Below, in pieces: positions 28,021 to 34,875 of a stretch of 64,000 bases of DNA. Under the pieces are notes generated by a model, which saw only the letters and a list, made by a program, of their open reading frames with translations, ran no database searches and was not told the DNA's origin. A program made the position numbers and the translations under genes. Origin of the DNA: Undibacterium umbellatum (lineage in GTDB: Bacteria > Pseudomonadota > Gammaproteobacteria > Burkholderiales > Burkholderiaceae_D); the NCBI RefSeq assembly GCF_014284125.1, contig NZ_JACOFX010000001.1, positions 868,001 through 932,000 of the forward strand, in the 5' to 3' direction. Position 1 is the stretch's first letter; every line of letters starts with the position of its first letter.

Positions 28021-29757
28021 TTAAAATTCTTCCCAGTCATCCTGCGCAGCTGACGGGGCTCCTTTAGTCGTCTTATTTTGTGCTGTCGCTGCTGCTGCGG
28101 GCAGCGAATTGACCGTCGCACGTTTGGCAGCAGGGGTTTTTTTGATCACGGCTTTTGCTGGCGATACCACAGATGCATTGCCGCGATTATTACCACCATT
28201 AGTGCCGCCATCATTGGCATCAATCTTGAAAATACTGACAGCATGATTCAGATTATTCGCCTGATCCCGCATACTGCTTGCTGCCGCTGCTGCCTGTTCC
28301 ACTAAGGCGGCATTTTGCTGGGTTGCCTCATCCATCTTGCCTATGGCCAGGCTTACCTGGTTGATACCATCTCTTTGCTCAGCGCTGGCAGAAGTGATTT
28401 CTGCCATGATGTCGGCCACATTCTTGATCGAGACGACGATTTCATCCATGGTTTTGCCTGCATCATCCACCAGTCGTGAACCGACCTCCACCTTATCAAC
28501 AGAATTGCTGATAAGTTCTTTGATTTCTTTTGCTGCATTGGCAGAACGCTGCGCAAGATTACGCACCTCGGTTGCCACTACAGCAAAGCCTCTGCCCTGC
28601 TCACCAGCGCGCGCCGCTTCAACTGCCGCATTCAAGGCAAGAATATTGGTCTGGAAAGCGATGCCATCAATAACACCAATAATATCGACAATCTTCTTTG
28701 AGCTTTCTTTGATCGATGACATGGTATGCACCACATCGCCGACCACTTGACCACCTTTGCTCGCAACTTCAGAAGCATTTGACGCCAGCGTATTTGCCTG
28801 ACGGGCATTATCGGCATTTTGCTGTACGGTCGAAGTCAACTCTTCCATGGAAGAAGCAGTTTCTTCAAGGCTGGCAGCCTGCTGCTCAGTACGGCTGGAC
28901 AAGTCCATATTGCCACTGGCAATTTCCTCAGAAGAGATGGCAATAGACCCGCTTGAATTACGCACCATGGTGACGGTTTGCATCAGGCTTTGGCGCATGT
29001 TTTCCAGAGCAGAAACCAGTTGTCCCATTTCGTCCCGGGACGTTGGCTTCAGTTGCTGCGTCAAATCACCATTACCTATGGCTTCAAACTGGGAAATTGC
29101 CAATTTTAATGGATGAGAAATGGCGGCGAGTAAAAAGTAAGCCGAAATAAAGACCGCAACCAAGCCACCTATCACTCCGAGAACATCAACCCAAACGAAG
29201 GTTGTAAATGCGCTTTCGCTGAGCTTTAATGAATTGGCTGCACCAGTAAATTGATACTCACTGAGCATTGCCATTTTGTCAGAGTAGGCGCTATAGGCGG
29301 GTGGCACTATCTTCATATTGATATTATCCGCCTCCTCCTTATTACCTGCCTTAATGGCATTCACCATTGGAAGATGTGCATCCTTGATGTATTTTTCACG
29401 CAAGACAGAAACCTCATCGGAGATTTTTTTCTCTCCTGCGTCTTGCGGTAAAGCCAGGTATTTTTTCCAATATACTTCTGACTGATTGAAGAAATCTTCG
29501 GAACGCTTGATGGTCTCCGCAGTATCAGGGAATTCCGGATGGGCGATAGCCCGGTCAAGGGCTGTGCGCGCCCGCAGGATAAGGACCCGTGACTGCCCGA
29601 GTGACTCGACAGAGGGCAATTGATTGGAAAAAATTTCCTTGATGACGGCGTTACTGTTTCTGACACCATAAATCCCCATCAATCCACCTATGACCAACAT
29701 AATTGCCATGAAAGCCATTACGCCTATCAGTCTTAACCTGATTGTCAGATTAAACAT
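28021..29757 (-). CDS. Methyl-accepting chemotaxis protein
   Basis: A 578-residue Tsr-type chemoreceptor. TM1 lies at about 8-30, followed by a periplasmic four-helix-bundle ligand domain (about 31-190, 4HB_MCP type), TM2 near 190-212, a HAMP domain (QFEAIGNGDLTQQLKPTSRDEMGQLV) and a long signalling coiled coil. The hairpin tip region is [27 protein letters not shown]. Methylation helices have typical Glu/Gln pairs ([15 protein letters not shown]). The C-terminus ends after a flexible Ala/Thr/Lys linker in DDWEEF, a tether like the E. coli NWETF pentapeptide that binds CheR/CheB. The ligand is unknown. No che genes are nearby. Confidence 0.95.
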   Translation of the reverse strand: MFNLTIRLRLIGVMAFMAIMLVIGGLMGIYGVRNSNAVIKEIFSNQLPSVESLGQSRVLILRARTALDRAIAHPEFPDTAETIKRSEDFFNQSEVYWKKYLALPQDAGEKKISDEVSVLREKYIKDAHLPMVNAIKAGNKEEADNINMKIVPPAYSAYSDKMAMLSEYQFTGAANSLKLSESAFTTFVWVDVLGVIGGLVAVFISAYFLLAAISHPLKLAISQFEAIGNGDLTQQLKPTSRDEMGQLVSALENMRQSLMQTVTMVRNSSGSIAISSEEIASGNMDLSSRTEQQAASLEETASSMEELTSTVQQNADNARQANTLASNASEVASKGGQVVGDVVHTMSSIKESSKKIVDIIGVIDGIAFQTNILALNAAVEAARAGEQGRGFAVVATEVRNLAQRSANAAKEIKELISNSVDKVEVGSRLVDDAGKTMDEIVVSIKNVADIMAEITSASAEQRDGINQVSLAIGKMDEATQQNAALVEQAAAAASSMRDQANNLNHAVSIFKIDANDGGTNGGNNRGNASVVSPAKAVIKKTPAAKRATVNSLPAAAATAQNKTTKGAPSAAQDDWEEF

Positions 29758-29913
29758 CTTTACTTCCCCTTTTTAAGGTTCCTAGCCAATTTGAAGCAAG
29801 AATACAAAAATTCTTAATGAAAGTATTGATCCGAGACAACTTTAGTAGAAATGTCGCAAAACTAGTATAAATACGTTTGCAATTATTGGGGGAAGAAAAT
29901 TTTGTATTTTTAT

Positions 29914-29943
29914 AAAAAAAAATCCCCGACATGTCGGGGATTT
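29914..29943 (-). terminator. Intrinsic terminator after cold-shock gene
   Basis: The perfect palindrome AAATCCCCGACATGTCGGGG followed by ATTT ends, on the minus strand, in an eight-plus T run. It lies 44 bases after the cspA-type stop and separates it from the chemoreceptor promoter. Confidence 0.9.
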
Positions 29944-29986
29944 CTTAGAGCAAATCTGGCGTTACACCAGACTAACAAAGAAGCAA

Positions 29987-30190
29987 TTAGATTGCTTGGA
30001 TGTTAGAAGCTTGCTTGCCTTTAGGGCCTGTCGTTACTTCAAAAGAAACGCGTTGGTTTTCTTTCAAAGATTTGAAGCCGTTAGATTGGATAGCGGAGAA
30101 ATGAGCAAACAGATCTTCACCGCCTTCATCTGGAGTGATGAAGCCGAAACCTTTTGAATCATTGAACCATTTAACAATACCTGTTGCCAT
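29987..30190 (-). CDS. Cold-shock protein, CspA family
   Basis: A 67-residue single cold-shock domain. RNP1 is [11 protein letters not shown] and RNP2 is DLFAHFSAI; both aromatic patches that stack on single-stranded RNA are present, and [13 protein letters not shown] at the N-terminus is canonical. It binds RNA or ssDNA, acting as an RNA chaperone and antiterminator. Length and sequence match housekeeping or cold-induced Csps, and which of these cannot be told. Upstream, 375 bases free of ORFs leave room for the long 5' leader common in cspA-type genes. Confidence 0.95.
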
Positions 30191-30565
30191 TACAATTTCC
30201 TATTTCAGTTAATGTGGGCATGTGCCCGATAGATCGTTTCAACCAAGTAAGAAATGACAGACTGATACTGCACTACCACTTTGAATCTCAACGACTGAAC
30301 GATTATACGCAGAATTTCGGGAAAAAGTAAAATAAAACACTACACACTCGATTAATCTTACACTTTCGGAGGGAAAAGTCGCCTTTCTGACGCAAAATCC
30401 ATCGCAATTTGTCATGCGATTGTCACATTTCTCACCTAGCCTGAATATTGCATAAATCTTCGGAGCGTCAATTGATCGCGGCCGTTTCCGTCATCGGAGG
30501 GCCTTTTGTTTCAGGTGCAGGGTGATGAGGTAAATTCTTCCCCTGGTTGTAAAGTCCATTACCCC
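30191..30565. other. Long leader region of the cold-shock gene; no ORF
   Basis: 375 bases between the cold-shock gene and the GGDEF gene stop. It presumably contains the cold-shock promoter and leader on the minus strand. A plus-strand terminator-like hairpin occurs at 30478-30511. No coding potential seen. Confidence 0.5.
30478..30511 (+). terminator. Plus-strand terminator-like hairpin without a gene
   Basis: GGCC and TCCG pair with CGGA and GGCC around a TCAT loop, followed by CTTTTGTTT. No plus-strand gene precedes it, so it could end a small RNA antisense to the cold-shock leader, or be coincidence. Confidence 0.3.
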
Positions 30566-32254
30566 CTAATTTGAATCTGAAAATACAAAAATATTTTTCC
30601 CAGACTTTTTTGCTTTATACATAGCATCGTCAGCAAGTTTGAGCAATTGATCAGGTGTCTGCCCTTCATTTTGGAATAATGCTATGCCGATAGATGTACC
30701 TACCCGTGCGTCTTTTCCTAAGTTGAGGATAGGCTCGTTGACAACCGCGATTAATCGCGAGGCAATGATGGAGATACTTTCACGACTATCAGGATTGTCT
30801 AGCAATATGACAAATTCATCCCCGCCCAAACGAGCCACAGTATCGGAGCCACGCAGTTGCCCTTCAAGTCTTGTTGCAATTGTCTTGAGAACATGATCGC
30901 CCATGTCATGTCCCAATATATCGTTAACTAATTTAAAGCCATCCAGGTCTAAAAATAACAACGCGATTTGGCGCTTTTCACGTTCGGCCATAGTAATAAG
31001 CTGCCCGAGGCGCTCGACCAGCAATAACCTGTTTGGCAAGCCCGTTAAACTATCGTGAAAAGCCATGTGATGAACCAACTGTTCTTTGTCCCACTGTACT
31101 GTTATGTCATCGAATACACCAACGTATGTCGTGATTTCACCAGCGTCGTTTTTTACAGCTGAAATTGAGAGTTTTTCAAGGAAAACCGTGTCGTCTTTGC
31201 GCTTACTCCAAACATCACCTTTCCATTTTCCAGAAAGATTCAATTCTTTGTAAAGATTGTTAAAAAACTCTGGACTATGGCGAGAAGAACTGAGTAAATT
31301 TGCATTTCTTCCGACTGCTTCTTCCTGGGTGTAGCCAGTAAGCCGTGTAAACGCCTGGTTCACCGACAAGATAATCGATTGCGGGTCGGTAACCATGATC
31401 CCTTCTGACGTCGCTTCAAACACGCTAGCAGAAAGACGAATGGCTGCATCTGCCTCCCGTACTTTCGTGATGTTTGTAACAAGCGCGAAGAAACCCATTA
31501 TCTCGCCGCTTGAATCTCTATCAGGGATGTAGTTGGCAAGCGTATAACCTATACTACCGTCCGGTCTCTTTATTTCGCGCTCAAATTCCTGTGGCTCCCC
31601 CGCAAGTGCGCGCTGCATATACGGAAAATTCAGCGAAAATAGCTGCTCTCCCAGCAAGTCTTTTATGGACATGCCTAATATCTCTGAAGGAGTGAACCCG
31701 AACCATCTCAAATATACAGAATTTGCAAACTTGCAAATCAAATTTTTATCCCAATACGCAATCATGCTCGGCAAGCCGTCTGCAATGGTACGGATGAACC
31801 TTTCCCTATTGATACTCTCAACCGACATCTCATCTGCTTTTTGTCTGGCCTGCAACAAATCATGTTCAAAACGGGTGCGCTCCACCGTGACATAAAAAAT
31901 CCAGGTCAGGCTTTCCACATCGATCGATGATGTTTTCTGACAATTGACGTAGACTGGAGTCCTGGTTCCAGTACTGCTGATCAATTGCAAGCGAATTTCA
32001 CGTATTTGCCCCTCACGCAATATCATGGGGATCACATGCGTTTGCAGAAAAATCCTGCTTGCCATTGGCAATAGCACATCCATCGATTTATCAATAAGGG
32101 ATTCCGGATCTTGCTCAGTAAGACTAAGCAGACTTTGGTTGACTGATAGAATTTTGCCTGCCCAATCGGTCACCAGAATCGGGCAAGGTATTTGATCAAA
32201 ATTTTGCACTAAATTTCTATCAACTGGGATGACTGAGATATTCACGAATGGCAT
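30566..32254 (-). CDS. RsbP-type PAS - PAS - PAS - GGDEF diguanylate cyclase
   Basis: A 562-residue soluble signalling protein. PAS1 (about 18-125) closely resembles the sensory PAS of Bacillus RsbP: MDVLLPMASRIFLQTHVIP, QIREIRLQL and RTPVYVNC. It is followed by a short coiled coil, PAS2 (about 150-265) and PAS3 (272-390, ending in the PAC-type YVGVFDDIT). The GGDEF domain (394-560) has DSLTGLPNRL, LFLDLDGFKLVND and an intact GGDEF at 477-481. An RGSD inhibitory site lies five residues before it, so it should make c-di-GMP with product inhibition. The ATG at 32254 overlaps the rsbQ-like gene by 35 bases. I infer that the hydrolase supplies a ligand or signal to PAS1. Confidence 0.9.
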   Translation of the reverse strand: MPFVNISVIPVDRNLVQNFDQIPCPILVTDWAGKILSVNQSLLSLTEQDPESLIDKSMDVLLPMASRIFLQTHVIPMILREGQIREIRLQLISSTGTRTPVYVNCQKTSSIDVESLTWIFYVTVERTRFEHDLLQARQKADEMSVESINRERFIRTIADGLPSMIAYWDKNLICKFANSVYLRWFGFTPSEILGMSIKDLLGEQLFSLNFPYMQRALAGEPQEFEREIKRPDGSIGYTLANYIPDRDSSGEIMGFFALVTNITKVREADAAIRLSASVFEATSEGIMVTDPQSIILSVNQAFTRLTGYTQEEAVGRNANLLSSSRHSPEFFNNLYKELNLSGKWKGDVWSKRKDDTVFLEKLSISAVKNDAGEITTYVGVFDDITVQWDKEQLVHHMAFHDSLTGLPNRLLLVERLGQLITMAEREKRQIALLFLDLDGFKLVNDILGHDMGDHVLKTIATRLEGQLRGSDTVARLGGDEFVILLDNPDSRESISIIASRLIAVVNEPILNLGKDARVGTSIGIALFQNEGQTPDQLLKLADDAMYKAKKSGKNIFVFSDSN

Positions 32255-33047
32255 CAACGACGAGCGAGGGTTCGCTCATGTGCGCGCAATGGCCTTGCAC
32301 TTCCAGCACTTTAAGAGTACTGCCAGCCAGATGATTGTGAACGTATTCACCGACCTGAACCGGTGCCAGCGTATCTGTTCTGTGCTGAATAACCAGGCAA
32401 GGTCGGTTCACTTTGGGAAGGTCGGCTCTGTTATCAGAGAAAAAAGTGGTTCTCGCAAACACCTTTGTCGTCGTTGGGTCGGTAGAACAAAAACTGTCCG
32501 ATAGTTCAGCAGTTACAGAACCGGCCTCACCTTGTGCAGAAACAACCGGGGCAAGATAGTTAGCCCACCCAATATAATTCTGCTCCATGAGATCTAGCAG
32601 ACCTTCAAGATCCTCCTTCTCAAATCCACCAAAGTATTCGGGTGGGTCATTGACAAAGCATGGGTTTGGCCCTACCAAAATCAACTTATCAAACAATTCT
32701 GGTCTTGCAATCGAAGCCAAGATTCCGGCACTGCAACTGACAGAGTGTCCAATGAATGTAATACCACTTGCCAAACCAAGTGCATCGCAGACGTCGAGTA
32801 TGTCTTGGGCATAGCCGTTAAGACTGGCGTACCGATGCGGGTCAAAAGCCTTTAAATCCGACCTTCCTGAACCCACATAATCAAACAGTACTTGTTTGTG
32901 AGTCCCAATAAACGCAGGCGTTACCCTGTCCCACATATTTTGATTGCATCCAAAACCATGGGCATACAGCAGCACTGGACCAGACTCGCCAATGACTTTT
33001 ACGTTATTACGATGAAGAACATTCAAGTCTATCTTTTCTGCAGACAT
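32220..33047 (-). CDS. RsbQ-like alpha/beta hydrolase
   Basis: A 275-residue alpha/beta hydrolase very similar along its length to Bacillus subtilis RsbQ, the hydrolase needed for energy-stress activation of the PAS phosphatase RsbP. Shared blocks include HGFGCNQNMWDRVTPAF, VLFDYVGSGRSDL, GYAQDILDVCDAL, NDPPEYFGGFE and FCSTDP. The catalytic triad is complete: Ser102 in IGHSVS, Asp225 in HRTDTLAP and His253 in QGHCAHMS. CCGGAG precedes the ATG. It is the first gene of a two-gene operon with the GGDEF protein. Strigolactone-receptor-like proteins share this fold, but the RsbQ-specific blocks make this assignment firm. Confidence 0.92.
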   Translation of the reverse strand: MSAEKIDLNVLHRNNVKVIGESGPVLLYAHGFGCNQNMWDRVTPAFIGTHKQVLFDYVGSGRSDLKAFDPHRYASLNGYAQDILDVCDALGLASGITFIGHSVSCSAGILASIARPELFDKLILVGPNPCFVNDPPEYFGGFEKEDLEGLLDLMEQNYIGWANYLAPVVSAQGEAGSVTAELSDSFCSTDPTTTKVFARTTFFSDNRADLPKVNRPCLVIQHRTDTLAPVQVGEYVHNHLAGSTLKVLEVQGHCAHMSEPSLVVDAIREYLSHPS

Positions 33048-33097
33048 GGGTTAACTCCGGTGCTGGTTAGGTTGACGTAGCTTACAGTAAGGTCGAT

Positions 33098-33114
33098 GGA
33101 TGTGAGGCACATCC
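33098..33114. promoter_or_regulatory. Small inverted repeat in the rsbQ leader
   Basis: GGATGTG-AGG-CACATCC is a 7-bp perfect stem about 50 bases upstream of the rsbQ-like start. It could be an operator or a leader hairpin. Confidence 0.35.
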
Positions 33115-33176
33115 TTCAATATTCAAATTTTGTGAACAATTGACGTCCAAGTAGCTTAAAGCAGCAGCTTGGCTCA

Positions 33177-33204
33177 AGTATATGTTTATTGAGCAAATAC
33201 GCAA
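33177..33204 (-). promoter_or_regulatory. Possible sigma-70 promoter for the rsbQ-GGDEF operon
   Basis: On the minus strand TTGCGT and TATACT are separated by 16 bases. The -10 has one mismatch to consensus and the -35 has two. It would give a leader of about 120 bases. Chance occurrence is quite possible. Confidence 0.25.
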
Positions 33205-33339
33205 ATTGAACTAGCCGCCGAACTGCGTATTCTATCTACTTCGCAAAACAATGTTGCGCGGATGCAATAGACGTTTCAGAATCACTTTCAAACGCAAGGA
33301 GTTTATAAATTTGTGAGATGCTGATGCTGGTTTTGTACG

Positions 33340-33793
33340 CACTGGCGAGGGTGGTTTCTAACCTGGCCAGGACTTGCCCAGCTTTGACGCCGGCACCTTC
33401 TTATACCAGTTTTTCTTTGAGTAAACCTGCTTCTCCTGGTTGCACGATCTTGAGCAGGGTCTTGGGAGTGAGTTTGCCTTCAGCCGTGGCGATGATGTCT
33501 AGCCTACCGATGGCAGCGCGGGGCAGCGGGATGAAGACGAGGATGCGGACTACCCACAGGAAGATGCGGTCTATGTGACTGGGGTTGCAGTTGCTTTTAT
33601 TTGTCTTGCTGGTGCCGGAGGCATTGGCTGGGCGCCGTTCTGTCAAACGATAGATGGCATCAACCTTAAGGCATTTGGGCAAGCCATGGGCAATGACGAG
33701 CATGGTGACTTTGCCTTTGAGGGCGTTGATCGTGTGGGCGAAACGTTCTGCGGTGGTGTCGAGCGCGCTGGTTGTAAAGTATTCCTCATTTAA
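33340..33793 (-). pseudogene. Type I secretion remnant: ABC transporter C-terminus plus HlyD-like N-terminus
   Basis: Decayed fragments of two adjacent T1SS genes, in one open frame for part of the way. The first piece is the end of an HlyB/LapB-type ATPase: TSALDTTAERFAHTINALKG, then TMLVIAHGLPKCLKVD, covering the D-loop and switch His. It is followed by a HlyD adaptor N-terminus: FIPLPRAAIGRLDIIATAEG and KIVQPGEAGLLKEKLV. A TAA then interrupts the lipoyl-like continuation EGAGVKAGQVLARLETTLA. The ATPase is missing its Walker A half and the adaptor everything after the first lipoyl half. It abuts an IS630-type remnant. Confidence 0.7.
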
Positions 33794-34027
33794 GACAAGC
33801 TGCGTGTGCATCACTTCAAGCCAGTAAAGGCAAGCTTAGCCGTACATGCCAATGAAGTAGATGTGTTTTATTTGCCCAGTTACAGCCCTGAAATCTATCC
33901 CGAAGAACGCCTCAACGCAGATATTATGTAAGCGATTCGGAGCAAGGTTTTGGTGTGCATAAAAGAAAAACTACGTACAACCACTGAGTGGCGCATGAAC
34001 GACATTGCGATCAAACTGGGGCGCTGA
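33794..34027 (+). mobile_element. IS630-family transposase C-terminal remnant
   Basis: Plus-strand reading gives DKLRVHHFKPVKASLAVHAN, then VDVFYLPSYSPEIYPEERLN, the DDE_3 block that carries the last catalytic acidic residue of IS630-type transposases (the Glu of Pro-Glu-Glu-Arg). A TAA stop interrupts it seven codons later, and the frame resumes with KVLVCIKEKLRTTTEW to a final stop. The N-terminal two thirds are absent, so it cannot be active. Its left end lies exactly where the secretion remnant loses similarity, pointing to insertion or IS-mediated deletion. Confidence 0.65.
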
Positions 34028-34089
34028 CATACTTACTAACAGGATGCCTTGGTGAAATACGCAGCTTTATCTATTTGAATGTCGAATCA

Positions 34090-34875
34090 CTAATTCAGCT
34101 TGCAACCAAAATGAGCGGTGCGTTTATCCAGGAAGGCTGATACCCCTTCAGCAAAGTCCGGTGTCATCGTGACCGTTGCAAAAGCCTCGATCTCGTCATT
34201 GACCTGCTGTTCAAGCGAAGTCGCGTCTGACTGATAGATCAAGCGTTTTATTCTGGCATAAGTTTCTTGAGGACCACGCAGTAGCTTCAGCGCCAGCTTC
34301 TCAGTCACATCTTTTAATTGCTCTGGAGGTACGACAAGATTAATGAGACCAAAGGCCAGGGCTTCATCGGCATCGAAATTCTCTGAAAACAATAGCCATT
34401 CCAGCGCCTTGCGGTTACCGACCAGGCGCGGCAAGAACCAGGTATTGCCGACATCAGGGCTTGCACCTATCTTGGCGTAGGCCATATTGAAACGCGTGCC
34501 CTTGGCAGCCACGACCAGATCAGCCGCATTCATAGTGCCCATGCTGCCACCGGCAACCGCTCCGTGTACAGAGGCAATGACAATCGCAGGCAATTTATGC
34601 AGGCGCAATATCGCCTGATTCAGTTCAGCACCAATTTCACGTATGGCTTCAGGAGATGCCGGGTCGCCAGGCTTGAAGCTGGCAATGTCGCCGCCAGCGC
34701 CAAATACCTTGCCCTCGGCACGAACAATCACGACGCGTATGCTGTGGTCTTCTGCAAGCAACTGTGTCAACTCGTTCAGGGAACGTATCTCGGCTGCCCC
34801 CATCACGTTCATGCAACTCGGATTATCAAAGATGATGGTGGCCAGTCCATTGGCTTTTTCAAGACGTATGCTCAT
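34090..34875 (-). CDS. Enoyl-CoA hydratase/isomerase family protein
   Basis: A 261-residue crotonase-fold protein that hydrates or isomerises acyl-CoA double bonds. The start at MSIRLEKANGLATI follows AAGGGA; the upstream extension is unlike the family. The oxyanion-hole segments are GKVFGAGGDIASF and VHGAVAGGSMGTM. The first catalytic Glu position is replaced by Met or nearby residues (GGSMGTMNAADLVV), whereas the second acidic region SPDVGNTWFLPRLVG has Asp rather than Glu. This may mean an isomerase or specialised hydratase rather than a classical short-chain enoyl-CoA hydratase. It is flanked by the thioesterase and FadB-like genes. Confidence 0.85.
   Translation of the reverse strand: MSIRLEKANGLATIIFDNPSCMNVMGAAEIRSLNELTQLLAEDHSIRVVIVRAEGKVFGAGGDIASFKPGDPASPEAIREIGAELNQAILRLHKLPAIVIASVHGAVAGGSMGTMNAADLVVAAKGTRFNMAYAKIGASPDVGNTWFLPRLVGNRKALEWLLFSENFDADEALAFGLINLVVPPEQLKDVTEKLALKLLRGPQETYARIKRLIYQSDATSLEQQVNDEIEAFATVTMTPDFAEGVSAFLDKRTAHFGCKLN

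Follow-up and report, generated by a model that had tools for sequence, protein, structure and literature searches.

A probable RsbQ-PAS module with a diguanylate cyclase output in Undibacterium umbellatum

Does an RsbQ-type hydrolase control the synthesis of cyclic di-GMP (c-di-GMP) in Undibacterium umbellatum? The question is raised by two adjacent genes in a 64,000-nucleotide stretch of its genome (NCBI RefSeq assembly GCF_014284125.1, contig NZ_JACOFX010000001.1, positions 868,001 to 932,000; hereafter the window), one for an alpha/beta hydrolase and the next for a GGDEF protein with PAS domains. The genome comprises 6.46 Mb in 103 contigs, with the window on contig C15. We consider it probable (about 0.8) that the pair forms a sensing module of the RsbQ-PAS class whose output is a diguanylate cyclase, in which the hydrolase would signal through the first PAS domain (PAS1) to c-di-GMP synthesis. 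The sequence itself shows family membership of both parts, intact catalytic and inhibitory-site (I-site) residues, linkage, co-occurrence, and hydrolase-PAS1 covariation; contact between RsbQ and a PAS domain and dependence on the catalytic triad have been shown in Bacillus subtilis only, and for the window we infer contact, direction of control, ligand, and cue.

The hydrolase belongs with RsbQ. Its best PDB match is B. subtilis RsbQ (1wom; E = 2.7e-95 over query residues 9 to 272), with which it is 53% identical and shares the catalytic triad. Ser102, Asp225, and His253 are conserved without exception across the 16 aligned sequences, bearing out the assignment made in an earlier sequence-only reading of this DNA. 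Pfam returns general hydrolase families only, and none of the 18 NCBIfam families listed scores above its cut-off. A search of its own genome returns, besides the hydrolase, a single remote relative (25% identical, E = 4.5e-5). The second PDB match is Olei00960 (3qvm), and those that follow are nearly all plant proteins of the DAD2/D14/KAI2 type (about 1e-59 to 5e-40, among the best 60 of 146 matches), which by sequence puts them in one hydrolase family with the window protein. The plant proteins signal through F-box and SMXL/D53-type partners, whereas output in the window would run through PAS domains and c-di-GMP. We take the serine and aspartate of the RsbQ triad to be Ser96 and Asp219. The triad histidine of RsbQ is His247, and the residue near the catalytic histidine is Gly120 in RsbQ, Gly119 in DAD2, and Ser119 in KAI2 (PMC3548789, from the part of the text available to us); the window hydrolase has Gly126 there, the same residue as RsbQ.

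The second gene encodes more than its earlier title, a PAS diguanylate cyclase, conveyed: Pfam bears out PAS and GGDEF, and two further domains, PAS2 and PAS3, had been omitted. A profile built from the PAS domains of ten Bacillales RsbP proteins, all from the phosphatase cluster, was run on the whole genome and scored PAS1 at 60.6 bits (E = 7.4e-16), with the next place at 19.9 bits; the generic profile PF00989 has 82 PAS matches in the genome and gives PAS1 30.4 bits. The gap in the RsbP-PAS scores rules out that PAS1 is a generic PAS domain and upholds the earlier proposal that it resembles the PAS of RsbP. We compared residues by rough alignment with a reference from Bacillus inaquosorum (L080), which fits B. 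subtilis RsbP numbering except at position 56. PAS1 is identical to RsbP at C10, L13, L48, F55, P62, E72, and P86 and differs at Q53 (Arg), C56 (Leu), and Y59 (His), and it thereby holds six of the nine signature residues of PMC3183031 (cited here and below from the part of its text available to us) plus P62. The replacements R53, L56, and H59 fall within the basic, hydrophobic, and neutral aromatic classes of the Fig. 3 legend in that paper, the assignment of classes to positions being our own reading. PAS3 shares none of the ten listed RsbP residues in the same rough alignment. PAS1 ends in YVTVERTRF, without a DIT motif, and PMC3183031 reports this motif as absent from all of its RsbP-PAS sequences; the motifs of PAS2 and PAS3 are given in Table 1. 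At the F-alpha positions 55 and 59, PAS1 has Phe and His; alanine changes at these positions of B. subtilis RsbP are null and disrupt the interaction with RsbQ, which was detected by two-hybrid and pull-down assays and is disrupted by F55A (PMC3183031). A PDB search with the RsbP PAS profile found no relative at E 0.01.

In an AlphaFold2 model of the cyclase, used for secondary structure only, PAS-like elements are present, a long helix spans residues 49 to 66 of PAS1, and a low-confidence helix (113 to 129) follows, in line with a helical linker after PAS1 and no proof of one. In 36 of 45 published pairs, a stretch of 21 or more residues with coiled-coil potential lies between RsbP-PAS and output, with intervening PAS domains among the exceptions (PMC3183031); in the window, PAS1 is separated from GGDEF by two PAS domains, along with the tentatively predicted helix.

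Linkage of the two genes extends to the nearest relatives of the hydrolase. A contig scan yielded 585 confirmed candidates, of which the best 80 were taken as named loci; two (L047 and L052) end before the neighboring gene and were left out. An RsbP-PAS gene adjoins the hydrolase gene in all 78 usable loci, across several phyla and three output types, and lies downstream in 76, upstream in one, and divergently in one. Because these loci are the top 80 among 585 candidates, this count is valid for the nearest relatives, not the whole family; it is also partly circular, as the PAS profile behind it derives from PAS domains that the window PAS1 had matched. The test of PAS1 itself with the Bacillales RsbP profile is not circular. 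By output, the 80 loci divide into 33 histidine kinases, 24 GGDEF proteins, 3 GGDEF-EAL proteins, 12 PPM phosphatases, 6 with no type assigned, and 2 (L047 and L052) in which no PAS was seen, so that GGDEF or GGDEF-EAL outputs make up 27 of the 78 usable loci. Where no type was assigned, L094 clusters with histidine kinases, L035 runs off its contig, and L055 shifts frame before histidine kinase-like sequence; four sequences underlie the histidine kinase profile, which gives Bacteroidota kinases low scores. No new output domain was recognized among the relatives, where only the four profiled output types were looked for.

Sixteen further loci from the family of the window add 8 GGDEF-EAL, 4 GGDEF, and 3 histidine kinase outputs and one locus with no partner seen (L032), whose hydrolase gene has an in-frame TGA. 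RsbQ-type hydrolases are patchy, occurring in 15 of 118 related genomes at E 1e-30 and, by a profile search, in 20 of 398 genomes sampled from the phylum at E 1e-60. In a rapidly built hydrolase tree with 94 rows (without L032, L047, and L052; 36 of 91 inner branches weakly supported), the window falls in a starred set of seven rows, six with GGDEF and one without an output type. The tree needs 12 changes among three output types, and its starred branches alone force at least 4 for GGDEF; outputs have therefore been swapped repeatedly.

Some loci are arranged in other ways. L044 (Massilia eurypsychrophila) and, downstream of the hydrolase, L089 and L091 (Paenibacillus) have short RsbP-PAS proteins with no output domain seen, possibly stand-alone PAS partners or else decayed or frameshifted genes; these are the other three loci with no type assigned. 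In L083 (Marinobacter), the RsbP-PAS gene precedes the hydrolase gene, both on one strand, and in L096 (Bacillus) the two are divergent, in contrast to the fixed order described in PMC3183031. One genome of the window's family, G065, has three RsbQ-type hydrolase loci (L023, L032, and L033), whose partners are a histidine kinase, none seen, and GGDEF-EAL.

The hydrolase and PAS1 also appear to have diverged together. Domains were usable in 37 of 39 GGDEF loci, and removal of near-duplicates left 32 (L019 was kept and the window dropped). Among these 32, PAS1 distances correlate with hydrolase distances (r = 0.81, Spearman 0.63) more strongly than with those of the GGDEF domain in the same chain (r = 0.65, Spearman 0.38). 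The partial correlations are 0.69 and 0.37, respectively, and the difference in r has an interval of 0.04 to 0.28 over 500 resamplings. This suggests that PAS1 has diverged more closely in step with the hydrolase, a separate protein, than with the GGDEF domain of its own chain.

Within the genus, the two genes occur as a unit. In the sister genome G042, the pair and 236 bp upstream form one block, 89% identical over 2,718 bp (30567 to 33283); the flanks do not match across the 19.5 kb compared, save two short far-end hits to window regions elsewhere. The pair is likewise all that matches in G017 and G005. Six of 43 genomes in the genus match the cyclase profile, and the five with a PAS1-bearing cyclase are the same five that have a hydrolase at 70% identity or more; in G007, the cyclase match omits PAS1 and lies on a different contig from the G007 hydrolase. 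The genus also has RsbQ-PAS modules of the GGDEF-EAL type (L024, L025, L026, and L028), which likewise have the hydrolase upstream and an RsbP-type PAS first, whereas their hydrolases form a separate clade, 47 to 48% identical to that of the window, and their output is GGDEF-EAL.

Both open reading frames (ORFs) lie where the sequence-only reading had placed them, but the overlap it described between them was not borne out. Overlap would need the cyclase to start at TTG 32257 or ATG 32254. In 10 of 13 relatives compared, an ATG (L021, L022, L035, L037, L039, L042, and L044) or GTG (L019, L020, and L036) stands exactly 8 codons before the PAS1 cysteine; of the other three, L043 has TTG at this place, and L038 (ATG) and L040 (TTG) have theirs one codon earlier. 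The window codon at the 8-codon place is GTG 32209, and L020 has ATT at the position of the window's ATG 32254. Because the start codons of relatives align there and L020 has ATT, we favor GTG 32209, which gives a 547-residue cyclase beginning 10 nucleotides past the hydrolase stop. On this comparison, the overlap is probably a start-codon artifact, and we reject it as such. Real overlap occurs in nine loci of the wider family (L043, L044, L046, L050, L051, L053, L054, L085, and L098), where the PAS match begins 1 to 8 nucleotides ahead of the point at which the hydrolase stop codon ends.

In the output domain, the GGDEF motif is intact (RGSDTVARLGGDEF) and is accompanied by RGSD as I-site, in agreement with the earlier claim for both. 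The pattern RxxD-5-GG(D/E)EF is found in 38 of 39 GGDEF-labelled proteins, the window included, and the exception (L064) runs off its contig. An RxxD I-site is not present in all active diguanylate cyclases. Relative to B. subtilis RsbP, the window protein has a GGDEF rather than a PPM phosphatase output and two extra PAS domains before it.

In the reading we favor, the hydrolase most likely contacts PAS1 and controls c-di-GMP synthesis. The soluble hydrolase would bind, and probably turn over, a small molecule and would touch the F-alpha face of PAS1; either a product would be passed into the PAS1 pocket, or occupancy of the hydrolase would be signaled by contact. The change could then be relayed through the helix after PAS1 to PAS2, PAS3, and the GGDEF dimer, which would make c-di-GMP subject to product inhibition at the I-site.

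Such coupling is not a new kind. Among 45 RsbQ/RsbP-PAS pairs described in 2011, outputs were PPM phosphatases, histidine kinases, or diguanylate cyclases; five pairs had additional PAS domains, and three cyclases had a phosphodiesterase domain (Nadezhdin, Brody and Price 2011, PMC3183031). The control of GGDEF by RsbQ and PAS inferred in the sequence-only reading is therefore supported, while its novelty is ruled out by that publication. The window resembles the 2011 diguanylate cyclase modules (e.g., Psychromonas ingrahamii A1SVT3 and A1SX34) in having the hydrolase directly upstream (by 10 nucleotides with the favored start), an RsbP-type PAS without DIT as the most N-terminal domain, a GGDEF output, and extra PAS domains, as in five of their 45; it differs in that its extra PAS domains number two and its GGDEF is without EAL. 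The locus is a well-defined two-gene unit and a further example of the class described in 2011. In a literature search that covered few subscription journals, PMC3183031 was the only paper found to link RsbQ with GGDEF or c-di-GMP, and none was found joining KAI2, a PAS domain, and a diguanylate cyclase.

Several points weigh against an RsbQ-PAS module that acts through c-di-GMP. Four of the 10 listed RsbP residues (L48, Q53, F55, and E72; rough alignment) recur in PAS2, and the AlphaFold2 model, built from 7 sequences, is weak (mean predicted local distance difference test score 69.2, predicted template modeling score 0.38, residues 109 to 148 below 50). The covariation is suggestive only, because a species-tree control is absent. 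With PAS2 and PAS3 interposed before GGDEF, the relay is longer than in RsbP, and other signals may dominate; because the genome has 60 GGDEF matches, this cyclase may have little effect on the overall level of c-di-GMP. We know of no biochemistry for this hydrolase-cyclase pair, and the same literature search, with few subscription journals covered, found no experiments on an RsbQ-PAS module of the GGDEF type. Alpha/beta hydrolases form a large and diverse group, and the intact triad would also fit a metabolic enzyme that stands beside the cyclase gene by chance while PAS1 senses something unrelated. Chance adjacency is nevertheless very unlikely given an RsbP-PAS neighbor in 78 of 78 usable loci among the top 80 of 585, which span several phyla and three kinds of output, the closer covariation of PAS1 with the hydrolase than with its own GGDEF, and the interaction of the corresponding B. 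subtilis PAS with RsbQ (PMC3183031).

If the pair is an RsbQ-PAS module, as we prefer, its cue and mode of signaling could take more than one form. The energy-stress version put forward earlier, in which the module reports falling energy and alters c-di-GMP, differs from our reading in its cue. It draws on the need for RsbQ and RsbP in sigma-B activation upon energy limitation in B. subtilis, but the available part of PMC3183031 calls the cue of the RsbQ-PAS module mysterious and energy sensing by the module in general without experimental support. We regard this version as doubtful; no later answer on the cue was found in the literature surveyed. Somewhat short of an even chance is a version in which the hydrolase acts as an occupied receptor like plant KAI2/D14 and catalysis serves as the reset. 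This corresponds to Model 2 of PMC3183031 and gains from the PDB search, where the matches listed below 1wom and 3qvm and stronger than 1e-39 are nearly all of the plant D14/DAD2/KAI2 type; against it stands the need for the triad in B. subtilis signaling, which PMC3183031 fits to both published models. More specifically, the hydrolase as a bacterial KAI2/D14 counterpart that couples a diffusible butenolide-like or other lactone signal through PAS1 to a c-di-GMP lifestyle switch seems improbable; were it true, the lactone might come from plants, algae, or neighboring bacteria.

The features of the locus are collected in Table 1. The likely place of a promoter for the pair is the upstream non-coding stretch, although a sigma-70 consensus scan of 33048..33283 found no sigma-70-type site, and a structured RNA scan of 29700-34200 found nothing at Rfam gathering score. 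Farther upstream, 33284-34080 (-) looks like the remains of broken genes; Pfam gives no match for ORF 33401-33814, and the end of this ORF and the next frame resemble what we take to be a broken HlyD-kind type I secretion adaptor. On the cyclase side, a short ORF at about 29990-30190 (-), presumably a cold-shock (CspA-type) protein, separates the cyclase gene from a methyl-accepting chemotaxis gene (28021-29757, by Pfam).

Table 1. Positions of the hydrolase-cyclase pair and its parts in the window
Feature	Position	Strand	Evidence or detail
RsbQ-type alpha/beta hydrolase gene, 275 aa	32220..33047	-	1wom E 2.7e-95, 53% identity, triad
Hydrolase triad codons	S102 32744-32742, D225 32375-32373, H253 32291-32289	-	Triad invariant 16/16
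RsbP-PAS/PAS/PAS/GGDEF diguanylate cyclase gene, most likely GTG start, 547 aa	30566..32209	-	
PAS1, RsbP-type PAS, without DIT motif at end	31883..32209	-	RsbP-PAS profile, residue comparison
PAS2, PF08448-type PAS, TNIT motif after	31457..31780	-	Pfam
PAS3, PF13426/PF00989-type PAS, DDIT motif at end	31100..31405	-	Pfam
GGDEF domain	30593..31063	-	Pfam; GGDEF motif 30826-30812, I-site RGSD 30853-30842
Non-coding stretch upstream of the pair, retained with it in sister genome G042	33048..33283	-	

As a discovery, the locus is one more example of its class, and its value lies in serving as a test bed for the RsbQ ligand, since the system could be reconstituted from two proteins. In such a two-gene cyclase unit, c-di-GMP would provide a direct enzymatic readout for candidate ligands and for both published models of RsbQ-PAS signaling.
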